64,000 nucleotides of DNA from Escarpia spicata (Eukaryota > Annelida > Polychaeta > Sabellida > Siboglinidae). Shown in pieces: positions 33,436 through 63,397 of the stretch. The DNA is taken from assembly GCA_963995525.1 (NCBI GenBank), contig OZ023213.1, positions 16,416,033 through 16,480,032 of the forward strand, in the 5' to 3' direction. The translations under genes and the position numbers were made by a program. Under the pieces are notes generated by a model. It saw nothing but the letters and a program-made list of their open reading frames with translations. It searched no databases and was not told the origin of the DNA. How positions within the stretch are numbered: the first letter of the stretch is position 1; every line of letters begins with the position of its first letter.

Positions 33436-34205
33436 CGACCTATATTCGCGCCCCGTCTCGTTCACGCGGTAGGCCCCACTACGCCGACCCACCTCCATCC
33501 TCCTTCTCGTTGATGCGGTAGGCCCCACTACACCGACCCACCTCCATGCCCCGTCTTGTTGACGCGGTAAGCCCCACTACACCGACCCACCTCCGTGCCC
33601 CGTCTCGTTGACGCGGTAGGCCCCACTACACCGACCCACCTCCATGCCCCGTCTCGTTGACGCGGTAGGCCCCACTACACCGACCCACCTCCATGCCCCG
33701 TCTCGTTGACGCGGTAGGCCCCACTACACCGACCCACCTCCATGCCCCGTCTCGTTGACGCGGTAGGCCCCACTACACCGACCCACCTCCATGCCCCGTC
33801 TCGTTGACGCGGTAGGCCCCACTACACCGACCCACCTCCATGCCCCGTCTCGTTGACGCGGTAGGCCCCACTACACCGACCCACCTCCATGCCCCTCTCG
33901 TTGACGCATTAGGCCCCTCTACACAGACCCACCTTCATGCCCCCTCTCGTTGACGCGTAGGCCCCACTCAATCGACCCACCTTCATGTCCCAACTAGTTA
34001 ACGCACTAGGCCCCACTCAATCAACCCACCTTCATGTCCCGTCTCGTTAACGCAGTAGGCCTCACTCAATCGACCCACCTTCATGCCCCGTCTCGTTAAT
34101 GCAGTAGGCCCCATTACACCGACCCACCTTCATGTCCCGTCTTGTTGACGCGGTAGGCCCCACTACACCGACCCACCTTCATGTCCCGTCTCATTGACGC
34201 GGTAG
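33436..34205. repeat. 49-bp minisatellite carrying copies of an exon end and 5' splice site
   Basis: About 15 copies of a 49-bp unit. On the minus strand each reads GCCTACCGCGTCAACGAGAC, GGGGCATGGAG, GTGGGTCGGTGTAGTG. This is the last about 30 nt of the exon at 34,177 (AYRVNETGH) plus its GTGGGT donor and intron start. Central copies are identical; outer ones are diverged. Confidence 0.9.
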
Positions 34206-34334
34206 GCCCAGCGCACCCCGGCCGCTCTCTGAGACTCCGACACCTCGAGTCTCGATGACAACGTGCCGAGGAGGATCTTCTTGAGCATCAACGCGACGGT
34301 GTCCTCGTTGTCCGGGTAATACACTCGCCGCACT
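34177..34334 (-). CDS. Host LLTP-like gene, exon 3' part, disrupted by element insertion
   Basis: The minus-strand reading runs from the insertion site to GAAG|GTGGGT. The peptide is VRRVYYPDNEDTVALMLKKI, LLGTLSSRLEVSESQRAAGV, RWAYRVNETGHE. GEVRRVYYP-DED-ALMLKK-LLGTLSSRL and W-Y-VNETGHEG are hallmark N-sheet motifs of vitellogenin/apolipophorin-type proteins. The exon joins 29,248-29,360 in phase 1. Its 5' part lies across the 12.65-kb insertion at 46,992-47,021; the 6 bp at 34,329-34,334 are one copy of the target duplication. Confidence 0.9.
34329..34334. repeat. Target site duplication, left copy (CGCACT)
   Basis: CGCACT directly precedes the AGTAGTAA terminus of the palindromic element and recurs at 46,986-46,991 directly after the opposite terminus. 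Six base pairs is the duplication length of Polinton/Maverick integration. Confidence 0.9.
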
Positions 34335-34356
34335 AGTAGTAAAGGAGGTTAAGTAC
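34335..34356 (+). repeat. Terminal inverted repeat, left, palindromic element
   Basis: AGTAGTAAAGGAGGTTAAGT AC; its first 13 bases are identical to the start of the Polinton at 49,526. Likely integrase recognition end. Confidence 0.85.
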
Positions 34357-34884
34357 CGGGGATGGTTTGATTATGATGGGTGGAAGTGGAAAAGTACCCG
34401 GATGTAGGTCAAGGTCAATGACCCGGATGTAGGTCAAGGTCATAGGTCAAGTACCGGATAGCTCGCGTGGCGCCACCTATCGGACAGGTCATGAACTAAA
34501 ACAACGTCACCTAGCGGAGTCCCCCCGAACTAAATTGGACCGACCATTAGCGCCACCTAGCGAAATTTGTCGGAACTAAAGTAATAATGCCAGTAGCGCC
34601 ACATAGCGGATTTTAGTCGAACTAAATGTTCTACTACTGCCCAAATTCGTGCGTCTTGGTTTTGGCGTTAGCTCCACCTGGCGGATTTTTTGTGAACTAA
34701 CTTCACCTAACGGATCGTTCGTGAACTGCAAGTGGTGTCATCTGACGGATAAATTGTAAACTAAATGTAGGAGTACTGCCCAAATTCGTGTCTCTTGCAC
34801 GCTTGCGTGCAATAGAGCCCCGTGACGGATACATCCCGAACTACAAACAGCATCCCTGGCGGGGCAAGTGAGCGAACCCTATGT

Positions 34885-35735
34885 TAAAGCATAGGGATTT
34901 TCCCCATGTTAAAGCATAGGGAATTTTCCCCATGTTAAAGCATAGGGAATTTTCCCCATGTTAAAGCATAGGGATTTTCCCCATGTTAAAGCATAGGGAT
35001 TTTCCCCATGTTAAAGCATAGGGAATGAGTTTGAGGTGTGGAAGTGGAAAAGTGCCCGGATGTAGGTATCATCCCCTAGTGGACAAGTGGGCGAACCTCG
35101 TGTTAAAGCATAAGGAATTTTCACAATGTTAAAGCATAGGGAATTTTCCCTATGTTAAGAGATAGGGATTTTCCCCATGTTAAAGCATAGGGATTTTCCC
35201 CATGTTAAAGCATAGGGATTTTCCCCATGTTAAAGCATAGGGATTTTCCCCATGTTAAAGCATAGGGAATAAGTTTGAGGTGTGGAAGTGGAAAAGTGCC
35301 CGGATGTAGGTATCATCCCGTAGTGGACAAGTGGGCGAACCTCGTGTTAAAGCATAAGGAATTTTCACAATGTTAAAGCATAGGGAATTTTTACCATGTT
35401 AAAGCATAGGGATTTTCCCCATGTTAAAGCATAGGGCTTTTCCCCATGTAAAAGCATAGGGAATTTTCCCCATGATAAAGCATAGGGAATTTTCCCCATG
35501 TAAAAGCATAGGGAATTTTCCCCACGTTAAGAGATAGGGAATTTTCCCATGTTAAAGCATAGGGATTTTCCCCATGTTAAAGCATAGGGCTTTTCCCCAT
35601 GTAAAAGCATAGGGAATTTTCCCCATGTAAAAGCATAGGGAATTTTCCCCATGTAAAAGCATAGGGATTTTCTCCATGTTAAAGCACAGGACATTTTCAC
35701 CATGTAAAGGATAGGGATTTTTCACCATAGCGCGT
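34885..35735. repeat. TTAAAGCATAGGG array, left arm
   Basis: About 30 units of 25-27 bp (CATGTTAAAGCATAGGGATT TTCCC) in two or three blocks separated by a spacer containing GGAAGTGGAAAAGTGCCCGG. It lies directly upstream of gene A. The mirrored array is at 45,680-46,420 with a different block arrangement. Confidence 0.9.
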
Positions 35736-35868
35736 ATGTAATGTAATCCCTTTATGTGTCGTCATGATGCAGTGACATCGTTAAAACTCTGCAGTCCGTG
35801 CTCTTGAATTTTCTACAATCCGAGATCTTTCGGCACACCCACGTGATCTTTATGGTCTGTGGACCGGT

Positions 35869-35876
35869 TATAAAAG
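35869..35876 (+). promoter_or_regulatory. TATA box of gene A, left arm
   Basis: TATAAAAG lies 53 bp before the ATG of gene A, downstream of CAGTCCGTGCTC and CACACCCACGTGATCTTTA blocks that also occur before gene B. Mirror copy at 45,522-45,529. Confidence 0.75.
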
Positions 35877-35921
35877 GCCTGCGTCTGTTTTTTGTGGTCA
35901 TTATATCTTACATTTTGGAAG

Positions 35922-36586
35922 ATGAACAACATGACTAGTGATAATGGCCGACAAGGGATTTTGCTACCGAAGGCGCAGCCTTCTCCGGCTATGGGACCAC
36001 TCGACCTCTCGACCCAGACAATCAACCCGTACCATCAACTAACGACCAGTCCAACGACCAGTCCGACGACCAGTTTGACGACCAGTTCGACGATCAAACC
36101 AATTTCGTCTCTGTCATCAGTTCCGTCAACCAACCCAACCATCAACCTAATGCCATCACCTCCGACGAAACGTCAGAAGCTTTTGCCTAGTTATACTTGC
36201 TGTATGTGTGGCAGTACCTTCAAGTATAAAGGGAATTGGCCCGCTCATGTGAAGCAGGGCTGCTGCCAAAGGAAGCAAGATAAACAGCGGCGACGTAAAC
36301 AACAACTCGAAGAACAGCTTGAAGAACAACTTGAAGAAATAACAGTAAGCTTCAATTTCTCATAGCGTTCAAATGGTATTCATGTCATTTTGTTAGAAAA
36401 TTTTCAAAAGCACATAATATTATATTTTTTCTTATACATACCAGTTTACCACTCATTATTAAGCTCATTCCTTCACTGTTTCATCGTCAAGAAAAGGAGT
36501 GTATTGCTGCAACCGTCGATGCTTCTCCCTCTTCTCCTGTCGTCGCGACAAATATCGTCCCGCCAATCGACTGTCTCTACTGCTGA
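35922..36586 (+). CDS. Gene A, left arm: zinc-finger/coiled-coil protein (two exons)
   Basis: Exon 1 is 35,922-36,344 and exon 2 is 36,485-36,586, giving 174 residues if spliced as in the right arm. The first ATG after the TATA box was chosen. An N-terminal Ser/Thr/Pro-rich linker with TTSPTTSPTTSLTTSS repeats is followed by a zinc finger near residues 92-115 (CCMCGSTFKYKGNWPAHVKQ GC; C-X2-C...H-X4-C) and a basic/Gln-Glu coiled coil (RRRKQQLEEQLEEQLEE). The donor is ACA|GTAAGC. In this copy the acceptor CAG has become CAT at 36,484, so splicing may fail or shift. A DNA-binding regulator or terminus-binding role is inference. Confidence 0.65.
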
Positions 36587-36816
36587 ACACACCCAAGCAG
36601 TCCAAGGAGAAACGACGACAGTCTTTACGTAGTAGAGTTGAACTTACTTCAAAGGGGTGCCTGTTTGTAAACTAGTTTGAACTGGTATTCGATGCGCAAG
36701 TCTGATCTACTATACAACCCGGGAATGTGTATTTCCTAACTTGGAATGTGTATTTCCTAACTTACAGTCCGCGCTCGTTCGACACGCCCACGGGACCTTT
36801 CGGTACATTCACTAAC

Positions 36817-36824
36817 TATATAAG
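36817..36824 (+). promoter_or_regulatory. TATA box of gene B, left arm
   Basis: TATATAAG 59 bp before the gene B ATG; preceded by CAGTCCGCGCTC and CACGCCCACGGGACCTTTC, related to the gene A promoter blocks. Mirror copy at 44,595-44,602. Confidence 0.75.
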
Positions 36825-36882
36825 CGCTGTGTTTTGTCAATCGGCTCACCATTCGTATTACGATGCCATCACGCCTAACAGC

Positions 36883-37350
36883 ATGTTGAAGACACCTTAT
36901 TACCGACCTTGCGATGCGGTAGACTCCAGCGATGAGGCCGAGCCAACGAACCGATTCATCATGCCGATCACCAATCGACCTTCTGTGTCGACGGAACCAG
37001 AGAGTGAGGACATCTGGTACACTAGGCTCTGCGATGTACCAACTTTCGCTTCTGATGATGTCGCAATTTCTGCTCCTGTCGATGTCACAACTGCTACCGA
37101 TACGATCGATGTGACAACTTCCGATCCCGCCGACGTCGTAACCTCTGGCGATACGACCGATGTGACAACTTTTATCGATGGTACCAATGTAACAACGACC
37201 ACTCCTGAACACGTCACAACTTCTACTCACGTGCCGAATGTCACAATTTTTGTGTTAGCGTTAGGGTTGGGGTTAGGGCTAAGGTTAGGATTTCGGGCAG
37301 CGTTAGGGTTAGGGTTAGGCTTAGGCTTAGCGGCAAAATTAGCTCCATAA
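36883..37350 (+). CDS. Gene B, left arm: Thr/Val/Asp-rich protein with hydrophobic C-terminus
   Basis: 155 residues from the first in-frame ATG after the TATA box (a nine-codon out-of-frame upstream ORF begins at 36,863). An acidic N-terminus (DSSDEAEP) is followed by repeats of the type DVTT-TDTIDVTTSDPADV, then TIFVLALGLGLGLRLGF and RAALGLGLGLGLAAKLAP. The hydrophobic end could span a membrane. It is encoded by GTTAGG/TTAGGG-like telomere repeats. AATAAA signals follow at 37,394 and 37,484. No family recognised; both arm copies are open and nearly identical, which argues for selection or recent duplication. Confidence 0.6.
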   Translation: MLKTPYYRPCDAVDSSDEAEPTNRFIMPITNRPSVSTEPESEDIWYTRLCDVPTFASDDVAISAPVDVTTATDTIDVTTSDPADVVTSGDTTDVTTFIDGTNVTTTTPEHVTTSTHVPNVTIFVLALGLGLGLRLGFRAALGLGLGLGLAAKLAP

Positions 37351-37393
37351 CCAAGGTGTGCAAAACTGAACTCTCAAGACGACACTATCTATG

Positions 37394-37489
37394 AATAAAC
37401 TTTGCAAGACCCTGTATCAATGTCTAGTCTCCGGTTCTTGAAGTTATGGACCGTGACATGTAAATACGTTTGTGTTGTTCACGAATAAA
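37394..37489 (+). terminator. Polyadenylation signals after gene B, left arm
   Basis: AATAAA at 37,394-37,399 and again at 37,484-37,489, each in the context GAATAAACT-TGCAA, suggesting an internal duplication of the 3' end. Confidence 0.6.
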
Positions 37490-37599
37490 CTGTGCAAACC
37501 TCATCTTGCGTCTTTTTTCGTGTCTTATACTTCACAAGTAAAGGTACTCGTCTAAGTCCCGATTAACAAATCACTCAAATCACTCAGCCTTCGTGTCTG

Positions 37600-38290
37600 A
37601 TCACTCACATACGGATGACACATCACACGAGAGTACGGATGACATATCACACGAGACTACGGATACCACATCACACGAGACTATGGATGGCACTTCACAC
37701 GAGAGTACTGACGAGACTATGACCGAGATATGGCACGAGACTTCGGATGACACGAGACAAGAGACGAGACTACGACCGAGATGTATCACGAGACTTCGGA
37801 TGACACACCACACGAGAGTACCGACGAGACAAGAGATATGCCACGAGACTACGGTTGACACGAGACAAGAGACGAGACTATGACCGGGATGTGTCACGAG
37901 ACTTCGGATGACACGAGACAAGAGACGAGACATGACCGAGATGTGGCACGAGACTTCGGCTGGCACATCACACGAGAGTACTGACGAGATAAGATATGCC
38001 GCGAGACTGCGGATCACACATCACACGAGAGTACAGACGAGATAAGAGATACCACGAGACTACGGATGACACATCACACGAGTTGCCGCGAGACTACGGA
38101 TGACACGAGACAAGAGACGAGACATGACCGAGATGTGTCACGAGACTTCGGATGGCACATCACACGAGAGTACCGACGAGACAAGATATACGCCACGAGA
38201 CTACGGATGACACATCACACGAGACTATGACCGAGATATGTCACGAGACTACGGATGACACATCACACGAGAGTACGGTTCGACCTGTTA
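37600..38290. repeat. CACGAGACTACGGATGACA repeat field, left arm
   Basis: Tandem and higher-order repeats of about 30 bp (ACATCACACGAGAGTACGGA TGAC). It yields HETTDDTSHESTD-like frames on plus and SCHISVMSRLLSRV-like frames on minus, but with no ATG-led continuous ORF across the block. Mirror at 43,100-43,830. Confidence 0.8.
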
Positions 38291-38353
38291 TCGAGTCAAA
38301 TCCCTCCGTTTTCAGGAAAATAGACGTGTTATCGAGTGGGATTTGCTTCAACA

Positions 38354-39183
38354 CTCACTCACTCACTCACTCACTCACTCACTCACTCACTCACTCACTC
38401 ACTCACTCACTCACTCACTCACTCACTCACTCACTCACTCACTCACTCACTCACTCACTCACTCACTCACTCACTCACTCACTCACTCACTCACTCACTC
38501 ACTCACTCACTCACTCACTCACTCACTCACTCACTCACTCACTCACTCACTCACTCACTCACTCACTCACTCACTCACTCACTCACTCACTCACTCACTC
38601 ACTCACTCACTCACTCACTCACTCACTCACTCACTCACTCACTCACTCACTCACTCACACACTCAATCACTCACTCACTCACTCACTCACTCACTCACTC
38701 ACTCACTCACTCACTCACTCACTCACTCACTCCCTCCCTCACTCACTCACTCACTCCCTCCCTCACTCACTCACTCCCTCACTCCCTCCCTCACTCCCTC
38801 ACTCACTCACTCACTCACTCACTCACTCACTCACTCACTCACTCACTCACTCACTCACTCACTCACTCACTCACTCACTCACTCACTCACTCACTCACTC
38901 ACTCACTCACTCACTCACTCACTCACTCACTCACTCACTCACTCACTCACTCACTCACTCACTCACTCACTCACTCACTCACTCACTCACTCACTCACTC
39001 ACTCACTCACTCACTCACTCACTCACTCACTCACTCACTCACTCACTCACTCACTCACTCACTCACTCACTCACTCACTCACTCACTCACTCACTCACTC
39101 ACTCACTCACCCTTCGTATCTGTCCATTCACTCACTCACTCACTCACTCACTCACTCACTCACTCACTCACTCACTCACTCAC
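38354..39183. repeat. (CTCA)n microsatellite, left arm, about 830 bp
   Basis: Almost pure CTCA tetranucleotide with a CTCC-rich patch at 38,728-38,805 and one CCCTTCGTATCTGTCCATT interruption at 39,110. All three plus frames are open (LTHSLTHS) simply because the repeat lacks stops. Confidence 0.95.
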
Positions 39184-39189
39184 GCCGTC

Positions 39190-40860
39190 CATTCGTCGTT
39201 TTCTAACATTTTATCTTTTCAACATGTTACCGTGGTAACATTTTCGTAACTTTCTGACAATTCGACGGGTTATCGCGTGACATCTCACCTCTTTCTGACA
39301 ACTCGACGGGTTATCGCGTACAGCTCACCTCTTTCTGACAATTCGACATGTTATCGAAACACTAAACTTAGCCGAACACGTGACACGAATTGAACACAGA
39401 CCGACTAGTTGGACAAACGAAACACTAAACTTAGCCGAACACGTGACACGAATTGAACACAGACCGACAAGTCGGACAAACGAAACACTATAGTCTGACC
39501 AACACGCCGAACGATGACAGGACTTCATTCAAAGTGGTGACCATCATCGTTCCCAACGCCACGCAAACGACTATGTCAATAACATGTAAGGAGAACCACC
39601 TGACAGAACTTCATTCAAACAGGTGACCATCAGGGTTCCCAACACCACTCAACGGATATCAATGTAATTAGTCAGAGTATTCCCATCTACCGACCATGAC
39701 AGATCTCTATTCGTCGACACACTTCCGGAAACGGTGAAACCGTAGAGGCCGCCATGACAGGTCGTCGCGACATTCGAGACTATATACACTAGTTTTCGGT
39801 GTCATCTCATTTGCATAACCAATCAGACCGAACGTGCATCACGTGACTTCCCTTAACACAAAAACTGTGCACGTCCATGAGAGAGGCGCCATTCGACGCC
39901 ACTCAACGGACACCAATGTAATTAGTCAGAGTATCGCCATCTACTAACCATGATAGATCTCTATTCGTGGACACACTTCCGGGAATACCCGAAGCACAGA
40001 GGCCGCCATGACAGTCAAGTAACTTCCGGTGTGACATCACTTCCGACGTAGCGTCCCTAGTATAGACCGCCATAGCAAACGAATTTGAAAACTGCTATGA
40101 CCGAACACTAAACTGTATACACTAGTTTTCGGCGTCATCTCATTCGCATAACCAATCAGACCGAACGTACATCACGTGACTTCCCTTAACACAAAAACTG
40201 TATCAGGACTTCATTCAAAGTGGTGACCATCATCGTTCCCAAAGCCACTCAACGGACATCAATGTAATTAGTCAGAGTATTGCCATCTACCGGCCATGAT
40301 AGTTCTCTATTCGTCGACACACTTCCGGAAATGGTGAAACCGTAGAGGCCACCATGACAGGTCGTCATGACATTCAAGTAACTTCCGGTATGACACCACA
40401 TCTATCACAACGAATCCTAGTGGATAATCGGAGTACTACCCCACACGATAGCGAAGGACAACTACCTGACAGGACTTCATTCAAAGAGGTGACCATCATG
40501 GTTCCCAACGACACTCAACGGACACCAATGTAATTAGTAAGAGTATTGCCACCTACCGGCCATGATAGTTCTCTATTCGTTGACACACATACTCGTTGGG
40601 AATAGCGGAAGCGTAGAGACCGCCATGACAGGTCGCCATGTCATTCAAATAATTTCCGGTACTACGTTACTTCCGGCGTAGCGTCCCTAGTAGAGGCCGC
40701 CATGACAGTCAAGTGACTTCCGGTATGACATCACATCCGACATAGCGCCCCCTAGTGGATAATCGGAGTACTACGGCACATGATGGCGCCATCTAGCGGG
40801 TAAAAATATATAATTAGGTTAGCTAGAGAAAAAAAGTTGGGGTTAACCTCGCGAAAATTT
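39190..40860. repeat. Gene-free repeat modules of the left arm
   Basis: At least four diverged copies of a 250-400-bp module containing AATGTAATTAGTCAGAGTAT, CACACTTCCGG and GCCGCCATGACAG, plus a 66-bp duplication at 39,360-39,490 (ACACTAAACTTAGCCGAACA). No gene. The mirror lies at 40,933-42,600. Confidence 0.75.
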
Positions 40861-40932
40861 AAACAACCACCAAAGTGGTTGTATACATTTTCAGAAAATG
40901 TTATGTTTTTGTCCCATAGGGACAAAAACATA
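40861..40932. other. Palindrome centre with three consecutive hairpins
   Basis: The 72-bp non-mirrored centre is built of three perfect hairpins: 40,863-40,882 (8-bp stem ACAACCAC, loop CAAA), 40,885-40,901 (8-bp stem ACATTTTC, loop A) and 40,903-40,931 (13-bp stem ATGTTTTTGTCCC, loop ATA). It is flanked by GCGAAAATTT on both sides as the arms begin. Confidence 0.85.
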
Positions 40933-42669
40933 AAATTTTCGCGAGGTTAACCCCAACTTTTTTTCTCTAGCTAACCTAATTATATATTTTTACCCGCTAG
41001 ATGGCGCCATCATGTGCCGTAGTACTCCGATTATCCACTAGGGGGCGCTACGTCGGATGTGATGTCATACCGGAAGTCACTTGACTGTCATGGCGGCCTC
41101 TACTAGGGACGCTACGCCGGAAGTAACGTAGTACCGGAAATTATTTGAATGACATGGCGACCTGTCATGGCGGTCTCTACGCTTCCGCTATTCCCAACGA
41201 GTATGTGTGTCAACGAATAGAGAACTATCATGGCCGGTAGGTGGCAATACTCTTACTAATTACATTGGTGTCCGTTGAGTGTCGTTGGGAACCATGATGG
41301 TCACCTCTTTGAATGAAGTCCTGTCAGGTAGTTGTCCTTCGCTATCGTGTGGGGTAGTACTCCGATTATCCACTAGGATTCGTTGTGATAGATGTGGTGT
41401 CATACCGGAAGTTACTTGAATGTCATGACGACCTGTCATGGTGGCCTCTACGGTTTCACCATTTCCGGAAGTGTGTCGACGAATAGAGAACTATCATGGC
41501 CGGTAGATGGCAATACTCTGACTAATTACATTGATGTCCGTTGAGTGGCTTTGGGAACGATGATGGTCACCACTTTGAATGAAGTCCTGATACAGTTTTT
41601 GTGTTAAGGGAAGTCACGTGATGTACGTTCGGTCTGATTGGTTATGCGAATGAGATGACGCCGAAAACTAGTGTATACAGTTTAGTGTTCGGTCATAGCA
41701 GTTTTCAAATTCGTTTGCTATGGCGGTCTATACTAGGGACGCTACGTCGGAAGTGATGTCACACCGGAAGTTACTTGACTGTCATGGCGGCCTCTGTGCT
41801 TCGGGTATTCCCGGAAGTGTGTCCACGAATAGAGATCTATCATGGTTAGTAGATGGCGATACTCTGACTAATTACATTGGTGTCCGTTGAGTGGCGTCGA
41901 ATGGCGCCTCTCTCATGGACGTGCACAGTTTTTGTGTTAAGGGAAGTCAAGTGATGCACGTTCGGTCTGATTGGTTATGCAAATGAGATGACACCGAAAA
42001 CTAGTGTATATAGTCTCGAATGTCGCGACGACCTGTCATGGCGGCCTCTACGGTTTCACCGTTTCCGGAAGTGTGTCGACGAATAGAGATCTGTCATGGT
42101 CGGTAGATGGGAATTCTCTGACTAATTACATTGATATCCGTTGAGTGGTGTTGGGAACCCTGATGGTCACCTGTTTGAATGAAGTTCTGTCAGGTGGTTC
42201 TCCTTACATGTTATTGACATAGTCGTTTGCGTGGCGTTGGGAACGATGATGGTCACCACTTTGAATGAAGTCCTGTCATCGTTCGGCGTGTTGGTCAAAC
42301 TATAGTGTTTCGTTTGTCCGACTTGTCGGTCTGTGTTCAATTCGTGTCACGTGTTCGGCTAAGTTTAGTGTTTCGTTTGTACAACTCGTGTCTATAGTTC
42401 GATTCGTTCGGCGTGTTGGTCAAACTATAGTGTTTCCTTTGTCCAACTAGTCGGTCTGTGTTCAATTCGTGTCACGTGTTCGGCTAAGTTTAGTGTTTCG
42501 ATAACATGTCGAATTGTCAGAAAGAGGTGAGCTGTACGCGATAACCCGTCGAGTTGTCAGAAAGAGGTGAGATGTCACGCGATAACCCGTCGAATTGTCA
42601 GAAAGTTACGAAAATGTTACCACGGTAACATGTTGAAAAGATAAAATGTTAGAAAACGACGAATGGACG

Positions 42670-43023
42670 GCGTGAGTGAGTGCGTGAGTGAGTGAGTGAG
42701 TGAGTGGACAGACACGAAGGGTGAGTGAGTGAGTGAGTGAACAGACACGAAGGGTGAGTGAGTGAGTGAACAGACACGAAGGGTGAGTGAGTGAGTGAGT
42801 GAGTGAGTGAGTGAGTGAGTGAGTGAGTGAGTGAGTGAGTGAGTGAGTGAGTGAGTGAGTGAGTGAGTGAGTGAGTGAACATACACGAAGGGTGAGTGAG
42901 TGAGTGAGTGAGTGAATGGACAGATACGAAGGGTGAGTGAGTGAGTGAGTGAGTGAGTGAGTGAGTGAGTGAGTGAGTGAGTGAGTGAGTGAGTGAGTGA
43001 GTGAGTGAGTGAGTGAGTGAGTG
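42670..43023. repeat. (GTGA)n microsatellite, right arm, about 350 bp
   Basis: Mirror of the left CTCA block but less than half as long, with five ACA-A/G-ACACGAAGGGT interruptions compared with one on the left. Confidence 0.95.
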
Positions 43024-43099
43024 TTGAAGCAAATCCCACTCGATAACACGTCTATTTTCCTGAAAACGGAGGGATTTGACTCGATAACAGGTCGAACCG

Positions 43100-43830
43100 T
43101 ACTCTCGTGTGATGTGTCATCCGTAGTCTCGTGACATATCTCGGTCATAGTCTCGTGTGATGTGTCATCCGTAGTCTCGTGGCGTATCTCTTGTCTCGTC
43201 GGTACTCTCGTGTGATGTGTCATCCGAAGTCTCGTGACATATCTCGGTCATAGTCTCGTCTCGTGTGATGTGCCATCCGAAGTCTCGTGACACATCTCGG
43301 TCATGTCTCGTCTCTTGTCTCGTGTCATCCGTAGTCTCGCGGCAACTCGTGTGATGTGTCATCCGTAGTCTCGTGGTATCTCTTATCTCGTCTGTACTCT
43401 CGTGTGATGTGTGATCCGCAGTCTCGCGGCATCTCTTATCTCGTCAGTACTCTCGTGTGATGTGCCAGCCGAAGTCTCGTGCCACATCTCGGTCATGTCT
43501 CGTCTCTTGTCTCGTGTCATCCGAAGTCTCGTGACACATCCCGGTCATAGTCTCGTATCTTGTCTCGTGTCATCCGTAGTCTCGTGGCATATCTCTTGTC
43601 TCGTCGGTACTCTCGTGTGGTGTGTCATCCGAAGTCTCGTGATACATCTCGGTCGTAGTCTCGTCTCTTGTCTCGTGTCATCCGAAGTCTCGTGCCATAT
43701 CTCGGTCATAGTCTCGTCAGTACTCTCGTGTGAAGTGCAATCCATAGTCTCGTGTGATGTGGTATCCGTAGTATCGTGTGATATGTCATCCGTACTCTCG
43801 TGTGATGTGTCATCCGTATGTGAGTGATCA
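43100..43830. repeat. CACGAGACTACGGATGACA repeat field, right arm
   Basis: Mirror of 37,600-38,290 with unit-number differences and point changes. Confidence 0.8.
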
Positions 43831-44068
43831 GACACGAAGGCTGAGTGATTTGTTAATCGGGACTTAGACGAGTACCTTTACTTGTGAAGTATAAGACACG
43901 AAAAAAGACGCAAGATGAGGTTTGCACAGTTTATTCGTGAACAACACAAACGTATTTACATGTCACGGTCCATAACTTCAAGAACCGGAGACTAGACATT
44001 GATACAGGGTCTTGCAAAGTTTATTCGTGGATAGTGTCGTCTTGAGAGTTCAGTTTTGCACACCTTAG

Positions 44069-44536
44069 TTATGGAGCTAATTTTGCCGCTAAGCCTAAGC
44101 CTAACCCTAACCCTAACGCTGCCCGAAATCCTAACCTTAGCCCTAACCCCAACCCTAACGCTAACACAAAAATTGTGACATTCGGCACGTGAGTAGAAGT
44201 TGTGACGTGTTCAGGAGTGGTCGTTGTTACATTGGTACCATCGATAAAAGTTGTCACATCGGTCGTATCGCCAGAGGTTACGACGTCGGCGGGATCGGAA
44301 GTTGTCACATCGATCGTATCGGTAGCAGTTGTGACATCGACAGGAGCAGAAATTGCGACATCATCAGAAGCGAAAGTTGGTACATCGCAGAGCCTAGTGT
44401 ACCAGATGTCCTCACTCTCTGGTTCCGTCGACACAGAAGGTCGATTGGTGATCGGCATGATGAATCGGTTCGTTGGCTCGGCCTCATCGCTGGAGTCTAC
44501 CGCATCGCAAGGTCGGTAATAAGGTGTCTTCAACAT
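44069..44536 (-). CDS. Gene B, right arm: Thr/Val/Asp-rich protein with hydrophobic C-terminus
   Basis: Mirror of the left copy with the same 155-residue frame, TATA box at 44,595-44,602 and polyadenylation signals on the minus strand downstream. The predicted protein appears identical to the left copy over the whole alignable length. Function unknown; a surface or membrane-anchored protein is one possibility from the Thr-rich stalk plus hydrophobic tail. Confidence 0.6.
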   Translation of the reverse strand: MLKTPYYRPCDAVDSSDEAEPTNRFIMPITNRPSVSTEPESEDIWYTRLCDVPTFASDDVAISAPVDVTTATDTIDVTTSDPADVVTSGDTTDVTTFIDGTNVTTTTPEHVTTSTHVPNVTIFVLALGLGLGLRLGFRAALGLGLGLGLAAKLAP

Positions 44537-44811
44537 GCTGTTAGGCGTGATGGCATCGTAATACGAATGGTGAGCCGATTGACAAAACACAGCGCTTATA
44601 TAGTTAGTGAATGTACCGAAAGGTCCCGTGGGCGTGTCGAACGAGCGCGGACTGTAAGTTAGGAAATACACATTCCCGGGTTGTAGAGTAGATCAGACTT
44701 GCGCAGCGAATACCAGTTCAAACTAGTTTACAAACAGGCACCCCTTTGAAGTAAGTTCAACTCTACTACGTAAAGACTGTCGTCGTTTCTCCTTGGACTG
44801 CTTGGGTGTGT

Positions 44812-45476
44812 TCAGCAGTAGAGACAGTCGATTGGCGGGACGATATTTGTCGCGACGACAGGAGAAGAGGGAGAAGCATCGACGGTTGCAGCAATACACT
44901 CCTTTTCTTGACGCTGAAACAGTGAAGGAATGAGCTTAATAATGAATGGTCAACTGGTATGTATAAGAAAAAATATAATATTATGTGCTTTTGAAAATTT
45001 TCTAACAAAATGACATGAATACCATTTGAACGCTATGAGAAATTGAAGCTTACTGTTATTTCTTCAAGTTGTTCTTCAAGCTGTTCTTCGAGTTGTTGTT
45101 TACGTCGCCGCTGTTTATCTTGCTTCCTTTGGCAGCAGCCCTGCTTCACATGAGCGGGCCAATTCCCTTTATACTTGAAGGTACTGCCACACATACAGCA
45201 AGTATAACTAGGCAAAAGCTTCTGACGTTTCGTCGGAGGTGATGGCATTAGTTTGATGGTTGAGTTGGTTGACGGAACTGATGACAGAGACGAAATTGGT
45301 TTGATCGTCGAACTGGTCGTCAAACTGGTCGTCGGACTGGTCGTTGGACTGGTCGTTAGTTGATGGTACGGGTTGATTGTCTGGGTCAAGAGGTCGAGTG
45401 GTCCCATAGCCGGAGAAGGCTGCGCCTTCGGTAGCAAAATCCCTTGTCGGCCATTATCACTAGTCATGTTGTTCAT
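44812..45476 (-). CDS. Gene A, right arm: zinc-finger/coiled-coil protein (two exons)
   Basis: Mirror copy: exon 1 at 45,054-45,476, intron of 140 nt, exon 2 at 44,812-44,913 (RQEKECIAATVDASPSSPVV ending DCLYC). Donor ACA|GTAAGC and acceptor TTTCAG|CGTC are both intact, and the splice is in phase 0, extending the coiled coil LEEQLEEITRQEKE. TATA box at 45,522-45,529. This is probably the functional copy of the pair. No homologous family is recognised; the finger resembles a short C2HC-type finger. Confidence 0.7.
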
Positions 45477-45679
45477 CTTCCAAAATGTAAGATATAATGA
45501 CCACAAAAAACAGACGCAGGCCTTTTATAACCGGTCCACAGACCATAAAGATCACGTGGGTGTGCCGAAAGATCTCGGATTGTAGAACATTCAAGAGCAC
45601 GGACTGCAGAGTTTTAACGATGTCACTGCATCATGACGACACATAAAGGGATTACATTACATACGCGCTATGGTGAAAA

Positions 45680-46420
45680 ATCCCTATCCTTTACATGGTG
45701 AAAATGTCCTGTGCTTTAACATGGAGAAAATCCCTATGCTTTTACATGGGGAAAATTCCCTATGCTTTTACATGGGGAAAATTCCCTATGCTTTTACATG
45801 GGGAAAAGCCCTATGCTTTAACATGGGGAAAATCCCTATGCTTTAACATGGGAAAATTCCCTATCTCTTAACGTGGGGAAAATTCCCTATGCTTTTACAT
45901 GGGGAAAATTCCCTATGCTTTAACATGGGGAAAATTCCCTATGCTTTTACATGGGGAAAAGCCCTATGCTTTAACATTGTGAAAATTCCTTATGCTTTAA
46001 CACGAGGTTCGCCCACTTGTCCACTACGGGATGATACCTACATCCGGGCACTTTTCCACTTCCACACCTCAAACTCATTCCCTATGCTTTAACATGGGGA
46101 AAATCCCTATGCTTTAACATGGGGAAAATCCCTATGCTTTAACATGGGGAAAATCCCTATCTCTTAACATAGGGAAAATTCCCTATGCTTTAACATTGTG
46201 AAAATTCCTTATGCTTTAACACGAGGTTCGCCCACTTGTCCACTAGGGGATGATACCTACATCCGGGCACTTTTCCACTTCCACACCTCAAACTCATTCC
46301 CTATGCTTTAACATGGGGAAAATCCCTATGCTTTAACATGGGGAAAATCCCTATGCTTTAACATGGGGAAAATTCCCTATGCTTTAACATGGGGAAAATC
46401 CCTATGCTTTAACATAGGGT
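45680..46420. repeat. TTAAAGCATAGGG array, right arm
   Basis: Mirror of 34,885-35,735 with fewer units. The 46,010-46,080 and 46,220-46,300 spacers are the same CCGGGCACTTTTCCACTTCC block. Confidence 0.9.
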
Positions 46421-46963
46421 TCGCTCACTTGCCCCGCCAGGGATGATGTTTGTAGTTCGGGATGTATCCGTCACAGGGCTCTATTGCACGCAAGCGTGCA
46501 AGAGACACGAATTTGGGCAGTACTCCTACATTTAGTTTACAACTTATCCGTCAGATGACACCACTTGTAGTTCACGACCTATCCGAATTTAGTTCACACA
46601 AAAATCCGCTAGGTGGCGCTTCTTGGCAACCAATTTGAGTTCGAAAAAAATCCGATAGGTGACGCTGTTTTTCGTTCCGAAACATTCCGACAGATGGCGC
46701 GTTTTAGTTCTGAAAAATCACTATTTGGTTCGTGACCTATCCGATAGGTGGCGCCACGAGCTCATTTGCATAACTAGCCACGCCCACAATGCCCAGCTCG
46801 CTCGTGATTGGTCAATTTCACAACTAACCATGCCCATATAAGGTCATTTATGCAAATTAGGCAACCTCATTTGCATAATTGGCGGGAAAGGGTTTGGAGC
46901 GGCCATGTGGAAAAGTCCTATCTCTTAACATGGGATTTCCACAGGGGCGCTCCACCATACGGC

Positions 46964-46985
46964 GTACTTAACCTACATTACTACT
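46964..46985 (-). repeat. Terminal inverted repeat, right, palindromic element
   Basis: Inverse complement AGTAGTAATGTAGGTTAAGT AC, two mismatches from the left end. Confidence 0.85.
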
Positions 46986-46991
46986 CGCACT
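46986..46991. repeat. Target site duplication, right copy (CGCACT)
   Basis: Identical to 34,329-34,334, immediately outside the right TACTACT end. Removing the element plus one copy restores the host exon frame. Confidence 0.9.
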
Positions 46992-47021
46992 TCACCACTC
47001 GCAGACATGTCGAACAGCATT
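46992..47021 (-). CDS. Host LLTP-like gene, exon 5' part across the insertion
   Basis: Removing 34,335-46,985 and one CGCACT copy joins this segment (MLFDMSASGE on the minus strand) directly to VRRVYYPDNEDT with the frame intact, giving FDMSASGEVRRVYYP as expected for the family. The proposed acceptor is CGCCAG|AATG; an alternative CAATAG at about 47,034 also keeps the frame. On the occupied allele the frame enters the element and meets a TAG within about 20 nt. Exons with the signal peptide must lie further right. Confidence 0.75.
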   Translation of the reverse strand, partial: NAVRHVCEW

Positions 47022-49525: not shown

Positions 49526-49538
49526 AGTAGTAAAGGAG
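49526..49538 (+). repeat. Polinton left terminus
   Basis: AGTAGTAAAGGAG, with 5'-AG as in Polintons. The inverted partner must lie to the right of 64,000. Confidence 0.65.
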
Positions 49539-49776
49539 ACCGCGCTGGCCCCCGACTCGTGCCGAGATCAAAGGAGATCAAAGGCACCGCGGGTCACAAA
49601 GATCAACAAAGGTCAAGCAAGTTGACCCGGCACGATTGAAAAATCTACTTATAAAAAATGAAATATCTTAAGTGGGTTTGACAGCTTACTTATAAAAAAC
49701 GTATGATTGATGAGTGTGGCAGGATGATTGATGAGTGTGGCGAGACAGTACGTAGCCGAGACAGACAGTACGTAGC

Positions 49777-50095
49777 GCCCCCTGGTGGGGCGAGATAGTA
49801 CCATTTCACTACCCCCTAGCGCCTCCTGGTGTCTTGTACTAGAAGGATATTCGTCTAGAAGGTTCGGAGATGGTTATGCTAGTACGAAAGAAGGTTATAT
49901 AGCGGTTATTTACCCTAGCGGTGGTATATTTGCGCCCCTGGTGTAGCGAGATAGTACCATTTCACTACCCCCTAGAGCCTCCTGGTGTCTTGTACTAGAA
50001 GGATATTCGTCTAGAAGGTTCGGAGATGGTTATACTAGTACGAAAGAAGGTTATATAGCGGTTATTTACCCTAGCGGTGGTATATTTCACCGAAC
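49777..50095. repeat. 156-bp direct duplication in the Polinton subterminal region
   Basis: Two copies beginning GCGCCCC-TGGTG-GCGAGATAG, containing CTAGAAGGTTCGGAGATGGT and ending in GCGGTGGTATATTT. Only a few substitutions. No coding content. Confidence 0.9.
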
Positions 50096-50280
50096 TTATA
50101 TAACGATATTAGTAGCGCCCTCTAGGTAACGGTTCTAGCACTTTGTATATTATAACAAGACCTTTGAACGAATCCCTTAGCTAGCGGCTATGCTATTCTT
50201 TCGCGCCATTCTTTTTTACAAACCTTCACCCGGTATGACGCTTGTTGTTGTTGTTGACACCAAGCGTAATCGGTAACAGG

Positions 50281-50440
50281 CGTCCAAAGTCCATTGAACG
50301 ATGCTGGCTGACTGAGCTGCTTTGGAGAATAATGCTACTGTATTATTCATACCGTAACTGCGTCCAAAGTCCATTGAACGATGCTGGCTGACTGGGCTGC
50401 ATTGGAGAATAATGCTACTGTATTATTCATACCGTAACCT
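50281..50440. repeat. 80-bp direct duplication in the Polinton subterminal region
   Basis: CGTCCAAAGTCCATTGAACG ... TATTATTCATACCGTAAC occurs twice head to tail, with three or so differences. Confidence 0.95.
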
Positions 50441-50573
50441 AGTAGGTAGATGTAAGCTTGTCTTTATAGAGGGTTCAGAACAACTAGTTGGAATATAGAG
50501 TTCAAACGGATAATAACGGTGTGAACATAAAGACAACGAGGAGTGCGGTGAGCAATATTATTATTATATTCTA

Positions 50574-51378
50574 CTATCCCCAGCGTACGCCGTAAGCACT
50601 GGGTGGTCCACCACCACTACCAGTACTGTTATAGGGAGGTCGAGGGGGGTCCGGATCAGGTCCGAAGCCGGCGCGAACCTCCACCAGCGAGGCGTCGGGG
50701 CGCTCCACCAGCGAGGCGTCGGGGCGCTCCACCAGCGAGGCACCGAGGCGTCGTACACCAGTCACAACGCACGTGCGAGCGGCCGGTACCGCGGGGCGGC
50801 GATATAACGTCGGCGGCGGTAGTTGCGTGTCCGGGTCGACGGCCGCCTCTGGCGGTGACGTAGGAGGTGCCTCCTGTCGTAGCGGCGCGCCCCAGCGGCC
50901 GGTCGTAGGAGGTGCCTCCTGTCGTAGCGGCGCGCCTCTAGGCAACCCCGAGCCCCAGCGGCTAACGGTGGTCGATTGAGTCCGCCTAGCGCAGTACCCA
51001 TCGTCAAACCACCGAGGCGCCTCATCAGGGTTATTCTTCCGGTCCCTGTGCCGTGGAAACGGCATAGCGCATTTGGCCTGTAAGAAAACAATAATAAACT
51101 ATAATATTACAGTGATTAAAAAAGGTCTACAGTTTAAATTGGTGGTGATATTATAGCGCATTTGTCCTGTAAGAAAACAAAGTCTTAAATAATAATAATA
51201 ATAATAATAATTAAATATACTACAGTGATTAAAAAAAGGGTCTACAGTTTAAATAATAAAATAGACCCACGGTATCGAAGGAACTGTAGTTTTTGTAAAT
51301 ATCGCTTAAATATTAAAAAGAAAGCGTGAATGTTAAAAAGGTATATGGGTAGTTACGTACCGTCCGTGAATATGCCAT
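50574..51378 (-). CDS. Spliced Pro-rich Polinton protein of unknown function
   Basis: Exon 1 (51,361-51,378) encodes MAYSRT and ends at GGACG|GTACGT. Exon 2 (50,574-51,077) starts after TTTTCTTACAG and continues in phase 0 as AKCAMPFPRHRDRKN..., 173 residues in total. Exon 2 has two internal repeats: APLRQEAPPT twice, and RPDASLVE/RLGASLVE three times. It is Pro/Arg-rich and probably disordered. It is divergent from the plus-strand gene at 51,838. An almost identical acceptor 89 bp upstream (near 51,168) lies in a duplicated segment and would lead to a stop soon after. No family recognised. Confidence 0.65.
51064..51260. repeat. 89-bp duplication containing a splice acceptor
   Basis: ATAGCGCATTTG-CCTGTAAGA and GTGATTAAAAAA-GGTCTACA TTTAAAT occur twice, 89 bp or slightly more apart. 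On the minus strand each copy has TTTTCTTACAG|G-CAAATGCGC. Confidence 0.85.
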
Positions 51379-51750
51379 GGTTTAGACTAGTCGAAAAGAC
51401 CGTGTAGTTCCATAAACGCCTTGTAACGGAATGTTGTTTACTGTAGAACTTCTAGAAGGTTCTAAAACACCACCTGACACGCGGCACGTAGGCCTCGTCA
51501 CGTAGGCCGGGTTGCGTAATGTTAAACATTTTAATAAAAGCTTAAAAGCATAAAATAAACGATCTATAAGGAGCTGTAAGGACTAGAGAATCTTATGGTA
51601 AACATATATTTAAAAATAAGACTCTATAAAAGCAATACGCCGTTTGTGCACTTCATAACCGAGCGGTTTTTTTCTAGTTTCAATAACCTTGGCAGACTCG
51701 GCTGTTGTGTGGTATACGTGTTTACGCGCACGCGCGCTATTCACCGTCCG

Positions 51751-51757
51751 CTTATAA
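51751..51757 (+). promoter_or_regulatory. TATA-like box for the RPA-like gene
   Basis: TTATAAG about 85 bp before the ATG at 51,838. A second candidate, CTATAAAAG, lies at 51,624. Which is used is not determined. Confidence 0.45.
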
Positions 51758-51837
51758 GTAGTTAGGCTAAGAGCGTCTATGTATTCACTCGGTTTTGACT
51801 GTTTTAACGTTTACGAACTTCCTCAGCCGCAGCAGTC

Positions 51838-52635
51838 ATGTCGACGACGGGTTCACCACCACCTATCAAACGAACGAAGAAGGCGAAGGCGAAGGGGAAG
51901 GCGGCCACCGCAGCAGATCAGACGTCGCCCGTCGGTATCAACGCATCCGGACCCCGATCGACACCACCCGCCGTCGCCGGCAGCAGCAGCCGGGGCGCGC
52001 CCGTAGCCCGACCGTCGACCATCGTTGCCGGTATCTGCGCGCCCGTAGCAGTGGCGACGTCGCCGCCGCCGCCGAGCTCCGAGCCTAGCAGTGCGTCGTC
52101 GCCACCCCCGCTACTCGTCCTTCCACCTTCGGTGAGTGTAAGCGAGCTTCTACAGGCGGGCGACGGTCTCTACTCGATAGCGCCCAACGTAAAGGTGGCC
52201 GCTATCTCATGGAGAACCCGGTGCACGTACGAGGGGTGTACCCAATGCCGTCGTAAGGTGTTTAGATCGTCGAACAGCATTCAGGTATGTGCCTCCCACG
52301 GGGTACAGCGCGAGGTGAGACATTATTTCGCGGTTCGGATGATGGTGAGGGAAGATGCGGAGGGGTCGGCCGAGGTATGGATCAGTCTATTCGACGACGC
52401 GATGACCAACCTCGTCCCCTACAAGGCCGACTATCTCGCCTCGATGAACCCCGACACACTGCGCGACACCGTCCTACAGATCGTCGGCACGGTCATCGAG
52501 GAGCTCGTCGTACGAAAGACAACGTGGGGGTCGGGGGCCCCGCCGACGTACACCGTTCGGAGTGTGGCGTCTAAGAAAAGCGACGATGATGATGATGATG
52601 ACGACGACGACGACGATGAGTATATTAACCGCTAA
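51838..52635 (+). CDS. RPA70 DBD-C-like zinc-ribbon OB-fold protein (candidate ssDNA-binding)
   Basis: 265 residues from ATG. Residues 1-100 are a Ser/Pro/Ala-rich, lysine-containing disordered region. Residues 120-230 look like the C-terminal OB domain of the RPA large subunit: AISWRTRCTYEGCTQCRRKV then VCASHG gives a zinc-ribbon pattern (C129, C134, C137, C151, H154), followed by strands RHYFAVRMMVREDAEG and EVWISLFDDAMTNLVP, matching the usual W-x-F-x-A-L order. The C-terminus is a long Asp run (DDDDDDDDDDDD), common in ssDNA-binding proteins. Role in element DNA replication next to PolB is inferred. In-frame GTGAGT donors within the ORF leave alternative splicing possible. Confidence 0.6.
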   Translation: MSTTGSPPPIKRTKKAKAKGKAATAADQTSPVGINASGPRSTPPAVAGSSSRGAPVARPSTIVAGICAPVAVATSPPPPSSEPSSASSPPPLLVLPPSVSVSELLQAGDGLYSIAPNVKVAAISWRTRCTYEGCTQCRRKVFRSSNSIQVCASHGVQREVRHYFAVRMMVREDAEGSAEVWISLFDDAMTNLVPYKADYLASMNPDTLRDTVLQIVGTVIEELVVRKTTWGSGAPPTYTVRSVASKKSDDDDDDDDDDDDEYINR

Positions 52636-52658
52636 CGATTCGTTTTTGTGTACTGTAG

Positions 52659-53564
52659 GACGTCGAAGAGGCACGGGCGCGGGCCCTCGACTCTATAATC
52701 ATCGATGCTTTGAGCGCCCTACCCACCGCCGCCGCCGATCTGCTACCGTCGGACACGCCGATGATATCCCTCGCCCTGCTCGAGGCCGCCACCACTCCGT
52801 GGACACCCTTGGTCGAGCCTACCTATCAACCACCGCTGCTAGTCGCTTGCGACTCACCGCCGTCGTATTCGAGCTCGACAGCATCGCCGCCGCCTCGGTC
52901 AACCGATACCAGTCTAGCAGGGGAAACTCGTGGCGAACCGCCGCCGCCTACGTATACGAGCCTATACCCGGTCCCGATCGACAGACCGGCGGATGATGAG
53001 GCGGCATCGACCGTGCTAATATCATCGGGAGACTCGAACGCGCAACAGGGATCGTCCGGCTCGGCGTCACCGTTTCTCGAGTTACCATCGTCCAGGCCGC
53101 CCCGAGCGTGCTTCGCGCCACCTCAGGATGCGGATTTGATGAGGGAGCTGATGAGCAATTTCGCCGAGGTGATCGGGGAAAGCATACTCGATCGTGCACG
53201 CCGTTACTGCGGTGAATGCGAGTCCAACGAAGGGTGCCCCTTTGTACATGTACAAGGGTACAGAGCCGGGCGCCCTAGCCGCCACTATCGGCGACTGTTC
53301 ACGGATGTGTTCAGTATATGCACTCGCTTCTTCCAATCCGTATTGACCGACTACTCGGATCGATCGTTAATACCGTGTTTGACGCGTATGATCCTGAACG
53401 TTCACGACCGATACGAGCTTCACGCGGATCGTCAAGCCGAAGTTCGTCTCGTACACCGGGTAACCGCGTGGTTCCTTGAGACCGACTGGCTCCACAGCCG
53501 CTCCGATTACGTGAGACTGGAGTCGGCGGTAACGGCCTACCTACTGGGAAGAGCTGATTTCTGA
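52659..53564 (+). CDS. Unknown Polinton protein, probable 3' exon
   Basis: The frame opens at 52,659, directly after TTTTTGTGTACTGTAG, a good 3' splice site whose TAG is also a stop in this frame. The first ATG is only at 52,761. If spliced it starts DVEEARARALDSIIIDALSA. A Pro/Ser-rich middle is followed by a helical, Cys-containing C-terminal domain (DLMRELMSNFAEVIGESILD, RYCGECESNEGCPFVH, FQSVLTDYSDRSLIPCLTRM). C, C, C and H could bind zinc. The in-phase donor may be GTGAGT near 52,132 in the RPA-like ORF, making an alternative product with a shared N-terminus. No family recognised. Confidence 0.55.
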   Translation, partial: DVEEARARALDSIIIDALSALPTAAADLLPSDTPMISLALLEAATTPWTPLVEPTYQPPLLVACDSPPSYSSSTASPPPRSTDTSLAGETRGEPPPPTYTSLYPVPIDRPADDEAASTVLISSGDSNAQQGSSGSASPFLELPSSRPPRACFAPPQDADLMRELMSNFAEVIGESILDRARRYCGECESNEGCPFVHVQGYRAGRPSRHYRRLFTDVFSICTRFFQSVLTDYSDRSLIPCLTRMILNVHDRYELHADRQAEVRLVHRVTAWFLETDWLHSRSDYVRLESAVTAYLLGRADF

Positions 53565-54062
53565 ACAGTGCTTAAAAAATGAACTTTAATGGCGAGAATT
53601 GCTTAATACAACCTTAGATCAAGAACTTTATTTTATATAACCGAAAAAGAAGAATAAAGCACACTTGTGCTGAATATCGCTTAATAACACACGTTTGTGG
53701 AGAACGTTTTAATAGAAAATATGCCTGCTTATTCGAATATGCGGTGCTTAATAAAGCACGTTTTGCTTGTTGTACGACGCTTAATAAAACGTTGAAACGT
53801 ATAAACACTCTTGTTGTTTACTATTACGAAAATCACCACTCCCGTCCTATACTTACACTCGCCTGTGATAAAGGCTGCAACACAACACACACACATAGTA
53901 GAAGGCGACCCTTTATTTTTAGCTCCACCGTTTCGCCTCACCGTAACTAGGGCAAAGATCGCCGTAGGGTCAACCCCGGTAATCAATAGTAGTAGTAGTC
54001 CTAGCGACGGCGGCGGCGGCGGCGGTAACAGTCATCATCACCACCACCACCCCACCCACCCG
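53565..54062 (+). terminator. Intergenic region with polyadenylation signals
   Basis: Repeated GCTTAATAAA-type motifs; AATAAA occurs near 53,750 and 53,787. They could end the transcript of the preceding gene. An open frame upstream of the PolB start (53,811 onward) is Ser/Gly/His-rich and probably not translated. Confidence 0.5.
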
Positions 54063-54070
54063 TATATAGA
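54063..54070 (+). promoter_or_regulatory. TATA box of the DNA polymerase gene
   Basis: TATATAGA lies 65 bp upstream of the ATG at 54,135, supporting that start rather than the ATG at 53,811. Confidence 0.6.
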
Positions 54071-54134
54071 GGCGTGTAGAGCTTCTTTTCAACTAATAAC
54101 GTGTTTGTTATTGGTCGCTCCGGCTGCAACAAAC

Positions 54135-59057: not shown

Positions 59058-59058
59058 G

Positions 59059-63360: not shown

Positions 63361-63397
63361 TGTGGTGAATGGGTCGGACGTCGACGTTTCAAGCTCT

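Follow-up and report, generated by a model that had tools for sequence, protein, structure and literature searches.

Polintons (Mavericks) sit between transposons and viruses, and to our knowledge their replication and movement have hardly been observed. We describe here a 12.65-kb palindromic element of the annelid Escarpia spicata, located at 34335-46985 of a 64-kb window (the whole stretch of DNA that was analysed; contig OZ023213.1, positions 16,416,033 to 16,480,032 of the forward strand). The element has Polinton-type ends and the architecture of a Foldback transposon, interrupts a coding exon, and lies 2.5 kb from a Polinton in the same window.

Several described systems resemble the element in part. 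In vertebrate Mavericks (AGT)2//(ACT)2 is the commonest end motif and target duplications are 6 bp, while intact elements span 12.7-24.6 kb with inverted repeats of 46-1,447 bp (PMC8097293). Like these adintovirus-like Polintons, the element has a 6-bp duplication and (AGT)2//(ACT)2 termini, and it has the 13 terminal bases of the Polinton in the window; its 12.65 kb falls just below the intact vertebrate range (PMC8097293). Unlike them, it is without the six Polinton proteins that were sought, its inverted repeats are ~6 kb long, and its centre is palindromic. Galileo and Foldback (FB) of Drosophila likewise have long, internally repetitive inverted arms, variable arm length and chimeric copies (PMC3573991), but the element differs from them in its Polinton ends, 6-bp duplications, ~6-kb arms and recurring hairpin centre. 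The Tm1 Mutator/Foldback family of root-knot nematodes also combines a Foldback architecture with the ends of an established superfamily, and comprises both groups like miniature inverted-repeat transposable elements and transposase-coding groups; it differs in its 9-bp duplications, Mutator-like transposase and other ends (PMC3169594). The hairpin model of origin-dependent inverted-repeat amplification (ODIRA), which has been put to the test in yeast, leads from a short interrupted inverted repeat to a hairpin-capped linear molecule and then to a palindromic linear one (PMC10766183). There, too, copying passes round a hairpin cap and leaves the repeat in the middle of a palindrome, but the product is a chromosomal rearrangement and no transposon, and it has no integrase ends (PMC10766183). 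Fold-back priming is described in a review (PMC7999016).

A literature search, with Repbase and most subscription journals outside its scope, found no description of a palindromic or Foldback-type Polinton among the titles and abstract openings listed, and none of the papers it covered contains the phrases "nonautonomous" or "non-autonomous" Polinton or Maverick. There is thus weak evidence that a Foldback architecture on Polinton ends is a new combination.

Ends and arms of the element

The element is 12,651 bp long, is flanked on both sides by CGCACT, and runs from AGTAGTAA to TTACTACT. Its termini, AGTAGTAAAGGAGGTTAAGT and AGTAGTAATGTAGGTTAAGT, are alike at 18/20 bases. The sequence-only reading that first drew attention to this locus had given the duplication and the inverted termini at the same coordinates, and these were borne out. 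The features of the element are as follows.

34335..46985, no strand: whole palindromic element, 12,651 bp, defined by its ends, the 6-bp duplications and the same ends in other copies
34329..34334, plus strand: target site duplication, left copy, CGCACT
46986..46991, plus strand: target site duplication, right copy, CGCACT
34335..34354, plus strand: left terminus, variant AGTAGTAAAGGAGG, AGG type, with 13 nt in common with the neighbouring Polinton
46966..46985, minus strand: right terminus, variant AGTAGTAATGTAGG, TGT type
34670..40860, plus strand: left palindrome arm
40861..40932, plus strand: 72-nt loop with three adjoining mini-hairpins H1, H2 and H3, defined by folding, copy comparison and a genome-wide centre search
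40933..46620, minus strand: right palindrome arm
38352..39183, plus strand: CACT tetranucleotide array of the left arm, much shorter in the right arm (42672-43023)

Inverted matches cover 97% of the element, which agrees with the earlier description of it as almost entirely palindromic; that description does not extend to the outer ~335 bp on the left and ~365 bp on the right, which are not mirrored past the first ~20 nt. The longest arm pair, of 1,457 nt, is also the innermost, its members being 72 nt apart and 100% identical as rounded (4 substitutions in the arm alignment). With the CACT array and the outer ~465 bp excluded, there are 26 mismatches between the arms in 5,078 aligned bases, plus several indels. 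Divergence is 0.19% beside the centre and rises to as much as 0.9% farther out. The long inverted repeats, the small single-copy centre and the 25-, 53- and 63-bp and CACT arrays in the arms together constitute a Foldback architecture. The window copy is also a hybrid, its left end being of AGG type and its right end of TGT type, and its two subterminal regions used as queries returned different lists of genomic matches.

Eight shuffles of the window in 2-bp blocks contained no structure with a 6-bp repeat and 20-nt termini at ≤2 mismatches. The real window contains 102 such pairs; among the 20 listed, 19 are AT runs and the remaining one is a separate small element described at the end of this report.

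An Rfam search over 33400-50200 returned nothing. A short motif, GCGCCNYCT, which we take to be CTCF-like, occurs at 34470-34560, 46606-46750 and 49775-50115, subterminally in both the element and the Polinton. Each region holds 2-3 occurrences, against a mean of ~0.02-0.04 in shuffles, and 10 more are found elsewhere in the window.

Copies in the genome and their centres

Other copies were sought in 1.06 Gb of genome in 1,097 contigs. Scoring covered the best 40 of 855 matches to the left-end query, the best 40 of 778 to the other subterminal query and the best 40 of 587 to the centre query. When the left end was used together with its 6-bp flank, 29 of the 56 non-window matches started at query base 3-7 (base 1 of the element is query base 7) and none started before 3. 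In all, 1,149 places carry the terminus motif AGTAGTAAWRKAGGT, compared with 44 for its reversed control; some of the 1,149 may belong to Polintons that have genes. Among the first 100 of these places, which share a single chromosome, 22 convergent pairs lie less than 25 kb apart versus 2 outward-facing and 2 tandem neighbours; the two ends are of one variant in 21/22 convergent pairs, and lengths are 1.8-16.1 kb with a median of 8.3 kb.

Stretches of 20 non-window copies were read, with both ends defined by alignment alone in 13 and one end only in 7. Identical 6-bp duplications flank 12/13 of the alignment-defined pairs. The second end of copy L016 (duplication GACGGT) came from a motif search that required a near-AGTAGT start and a matching duplication. 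A set of 14 elements was compared at the ends, 13 defined by alignment and L016 by the motif search, with copy L013 left out for its mismatched duplication. All 28 ends read AGT AGT...ACT ACT, and bases 1-8 (AGTAGTAA), 12, 14 and 20 are invariant. The search for further copies that the sequence-only reading had proposed therefore yielded them, with the same ends and the same length of duplication. L016 is a one-armed copy of 3.5 kb that matches the window element over its full length; its inner end lies in a tandem array, not at the centre. Because its terminal repeat is only ~14 nt, about that much of the terminus may suffice. Across 14 measured copies, the window copy included, the inverted fraction ranges from 0 to 0.97.

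The 72-nt loop recurs in other copies. It is present whole in L014, L024 and L009 (reversed in L009), where only the first and third mini-hairpins fold. L019, L022 and L023 have the third hairpin only, C5 and L013 the first only, and L010 a remnant. A centre was located in 12 copies. Five of these (window, L014, L019, C5 and L013) are symmetric for ~2 kb or more on each side, the shortest symmetry being 1,977 nt (window copy, local alignment), with identities of 0.84-0.99. In six others the arms match again after a short stem, so that they resemble palindromes with one inner arm lost. Matching resumes from the centre at 36/1018 nt in L024, 56/609 in L022, 22/985 in L025 and 55/1801 in C1, and L009 and L010 have ~38-43 nt of stem before the far arm; read directly, the stems of the six span ~22-56 nt. 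The twelfth, L023, was assigned to neither class.

Among the best 40 of 587 candidate centres, 29 (window included) are symmetric for at least 52 nt on each side, a count in which a copy with an arm lost farther out would also register as symmetric. The other 11 keep 28-38 nt of one arm, a range censored by the score cut below and by the 60-nt query arm above. Two elements have both ends and centre listed. One has its centre near the midpoint, with arms of ~5.7 and 5.6 kb after extrapolation of the ends by 42 nt, and the other has arms of 6.3 and 1.1 kb. Because 29/40 scored centres are symmetric and 6/12 copies look like losses of one inner arm, the palindrome may be the ancestral form, from which, on the simplest reading, later copies have lost one inner arm.

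Genes were sought in the element and its copies. Three open reading frames (ORFs) of the window copy are relevant.

35892..36365, plus strand: zinc-finger-like ORF of the left arm (C-x2-C-x12-H-x4-C by eye), 157 codons, with homologues in other copies
45033..45506, minus strand: the same ORF in the right arm, with 3 amino-acid differences from the left-arm copy
36706..37350, plus strand: ORF2 of the left arm, with stops in other copies

The zinc-finger-like ORF, present once per arm, is the one frame that recurs well, at 98.7% identity in L016 and 75-82% in L010. Its dN/dS (ratio of nonsynonymous to synonymous substitution rates) is 0.19-0.70 in 14/15 pairs drawn from the window copy, L016, L010, C1, L024 and L025, and 0.95 in the other pair; L024 carries a stop and L025 is without the finger. 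Pairs that involve the stop-carrying copies L022, L027, L017 and L018 give values from 0.59 to 4, or undefined. The finger itself shows only 1-3 changes of each kind (L024 left out). Coding constraint is thus weakly indicated, and we would guess that the product might be an accessory protein of the element. Of 534 candidates from a search of the ORF against 5.8 billion proteins, none reached E<=10. Neither a clear Pfam or PHROG domain nor a transposase domain was found in it, and its resemblance by eye to the zinc fingers of the neighbouring Polinton's polymerase was not matched by significant similarity. ORF2, which is broken in L014 and L016, is probably no gene.

Six proteins of the neighbouring Polinton (polymerase, integrase, major and minor capsid proteins, protease and an RPA-like protein) had no match in the element by tblastn at E<=0.01, and no Polinton-type Pfam or PHROG domain was found in the open frames searched. 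The earlier statement that the element lacks every Polinton core gene therefore holds for these six; the packaging ATPase was outside the query set. The stretches read of the 20 non-window copies likewise contain no Polinton gene, 7 of the 20 being incomplete and one copy, on C9, reading N over ~10 kb. The sole polymerase match, at L031, falls outside the copy. A search of viral contigs with the Polinton capsid protein and the terminus pattern found no relative. By gene content the element is not a Polinton.

Some members of the family contain or adjoin other sequences. The 16.1-kb pair C1:18642070-18658192 (duplication GATTAT) showed no Polinton gene in two 2.5-kb inner probes; within it, L041 (C1:18644000-18646500) has a frame that resembles part of a cut-and-paste transposase by eye, with no convincing Pfam match. 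A 10.2-kb member (L037 and L038, C1:41282269-41292426, and L031) has an outside flank that matches Polinton polymerase at 39-60% identity, and thus appears to be inserted in the polymerase gene of another Polinton. The C5 element (L011 and L012) carries long frames that by eye resemble the endonuclease and reverse transcriptase of a non-LTR retrotransposon, probably a nested one. A 13.2-kb member (L039 and L040, C9:5434950-5448300) reads N over its middle ~10 kb.

Probable mobilisation in trans and possible origin of the palindrome

The neighbouring Polinton, of 16.5 kb, starts at 49,526 with AGTAGTAAAGGAG, and its first 13 bases equal the left end of the element (13/13). Its right end, 2,044 bp past the window, has the same 20 terminal bases, a terminal repeat of ~285 bp that is identical, and AACGTG on both sides.

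49526..64000, plus strand: neighbouring Polinton from its left end to the window edge; right end at window-equivalent 66044, 16,519 bp in all, duplication AACGTG
62126..63388, minus strand: Polinton integrase, with rve and chromo domains both above the Pfam cut-off
53805..58361, plus strand: ORF of the Polinton family-B DNA polymerase (DNA_pol_B_2, E 2.9e-4, below the Pfam cut-off)

Other frames, which we take by eye to be its capsid and protease genes, had no library match. Among the best 100 of 3,880 integrase candidates, 27 including the window copy tie for the top score, all at 100% identity; identity stays at 98-100% through the first 64, none of which has a stop. Exact 19-nt Polinton ends number 123 versus 0 in the control, which corresponds to roughly 60 copies; among the 100 ends listed, many pair ~16.5 kb apart and a few nearer. 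Because the integrases are near-identical and stop-free and the exact ends are so numerous against the control, this Polinton family is very young, the product of a very recent burst. It is a plausible source of integrase for the element.

The ends with their 6-bp duplication, the end motif reported for Mavericks and the neighbouring Polinton with its 13 shared terminal bases all point to derivation from Polintons. The AGT/ACT termini thus uphold the Polinton-type interpretation of the ends given in the sequence-only reading. We consider it very probable that the element is a non-autonomous, Polinton-type element of Foldback architecture that is moved in trans. A Polinton integrase, from the young 16.5-kb family or a relative, would recognise the terminal ~14 nt of AGTAGTAAWRKAGG ends and join the element to a staggered cut, which would give the 6-bp duplication. 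The element would be copied as linear DNA by the protein-primed polymerase of a Polinton. A displaced or half-length strand could then fold back at the mini-hairpin cluster, and copying round the cap would produce an inverted dimer that has Polinton termini on both sides. Copies would later decay, chiefly through loss of the inner part of one arm beside the centre. The palindrome is perhaps, then, an inverted dimer of a hairpin-capped half-molecule, although the turn-around, taken by itself, is a tentative proposal, somewhat short of an even chance.

A more specific form of this proposal, which we regard as unlikely though worth stating, is a Polinton satellite that would replicate as linear DNA of half length, one end being a Polinton terminus and the other being capped by the hairpin cluster. 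Copying, primed by protein at the terminus, would run round the cap and give a self-complementary inverted dimer with two Polinton ends, which a helper integrase would insert. Every cycle would renew both arms from one, and a stem of 28-38 nt would remain where copying fails just past the turn. The arms within the element are 99.5% alike, while its relatives are about 3-27% divergent from it where they were compared; a satellite cycle, if true, would explain this contrast, the recurring hairpin centre and the regular 28-38-nt leftover stem.

Several observations weigh against mobilisation in trans and the hairpin turn-around, both of which are read from sequence. The middle mini-hairpin folds in the window copy only. 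In L009, L010, L015 and C1 the arms become less alike towards the ends, a gradient that gene conversion could equally give; the trend is slightly opposite in L027 and mixed in C5. One of the 13 alignment-defined pairs, L013, is without a matching duplication. No Polinton with the subterminal sequence of the element's own family was found in the genome, the match to the candidate helper being limited to 13 nt. Finally, the two window ends differ in variant (AGG and TGT) and in subterminal sequence. A clean inverted dimer would not give such hybrid ends, and a later exchange of ends must therefore be added to the model.

The strongest alternative, which we rate only a little below the hairpin turn-around, is that the inverted repeats of ordinary non-autonomous Polintons grew by gene conversion, as in Galileo, one repeat with its flanking DNA being copied stepwise over the other with no hairpin-capped intermediate. 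Repeat extension and chimeric copies are known in Galileo, and expansion of Polinton inverted repeats is said to have been reported (PMC3573991). The spread of inverted fractions among the 14 copies and the identity gradients fit such growth, and hybrid ends are explained better by it than by a hairpin. It accounts less well for the one-sided copies and for a common centre that is symmetric in 29 of the best 40. In L009, L024 and L010 a single-copy inner arm follows the hairpin stem and stops where the outer arms, 97-99% alike, begin to match again, a placement that fits the loss of one inner arm, not outward growth.

It is improbable that the element belongs to a Foldback family with an unfound transposase of its own, having 6-bp duplications and an AGTAGT start by chance and a Polinton nearby by coincidence. 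The stretches read of the 20 copies, 7 incomplete, do contain no Polinton gene, and IS3EU and GingerRoot elements also make 6-bp duplications (PMC10045372). Their termini, however, are mostly TA..TA (PMC10045372), not AGT..ACT, and an element of that type was rejected on this ground. In addition, the combination of (AGT)2//(ACT)2 with 6-bp duplications is reported for Mavericks (PMC8097293), the 13/13 shared bases belong to a Polinton only 2.5 kb away, and the zinc-finger-like ORF is without a transposase domain.

Equally improbable is a palindrome formed in situ after insertion, by break-induced chromosomal copying from a one-armed element. L016 is such an element and matches throughout, but it ends in its array, and symmetric centres with the same hairpins at other sites indicate that the form is inherited and transposes as such; this origin was rejected. 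Perfect palindromes are a typical artefact of long reads, but a fold-back read or collapsed inverted repeat is highly improbable here and was rejected, since the arms are not identical (26 substitutions, several indels), the breakpoints fall at transposon ends, at a 6-bp duplication and in an exon that has uninterrupted paralogues, and the same ends and centre recur at many genomic places.

Copies with Polinton ends and none of the genes looked for, beside ~60 Polintons very similar in ends and integrase, would make a single genome home to a natural helper-satellite pair. Such a pair would suggest minimal ends of ~14 nt and offer substrates for integrase tests. If the palindrome with its recurring hairpin centre is a replication product, it would record Polinton DNA replication in the germline. 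The family is also relevant to the tolerance of a genome for many palindromes of several kilobases.

The interrupted exon and a separate small element

The element lies within an exon of 68 amino acids, the two parts of which are as follows.

34177..34334, minus strand: 3' part of the interrupted host exon, with its GT donor at 34175-34176; aligned without gaps to paralogous exons, splice sites by eye
46986..47021, minus strand: 5' part of the interrupted host exon, including the duplicated 6 bp; by alignment, acceptor by eye

Joining the flanks gives an open frame on the minus strand, ...FDMSASGEVRRVYYP..., as the sequence-only reading had claimed. Seven other genomic places match across the insertion point at 57-91% identity with no stop, so on sequence comparison the exon is real. 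Three paralogous exons that were read align gap-free over 147 nt through the insertion site, and by eye they show a CAG acceptor and a GT donor. Translation of the occupied copy would run into the element at its right end and stop at TAG (GAA GTG CGA GTA GTA ATG TAG). The in-frame TAG had thus been rightly predicted, although it lies at nt 11-13 of the right end and not at ~20. The name "vitellogenin-type" given to the exon was not confirmed: the 68 amino acids match no Pfam family, and the best PDB match has an E of 0.014 and unrelated names. Adjacent exons were looked for, and no further exon was made out.

A 49-bp minisatellite of 15.6 copies occupies 33450-34209. By eye, its unit consists of the 3' end of the exon, the splice donor and the following intron bases, which makes it an array of potential 5' splice sites. 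The paralogues L045 and L046 have similar repeats.

The one pair among the 20 listed from the real window that is not an AT run marks a separate element of 2.4 kb (25044-27474). Its inverted 20-nt termini, AGGGGGCTTTACCCCAGATT, are perfect, and its 6-bp duplication reads ACCGGT. This element spans a reverse-transcriptase ORF at 25566-26429 (Pfam RVT_1).

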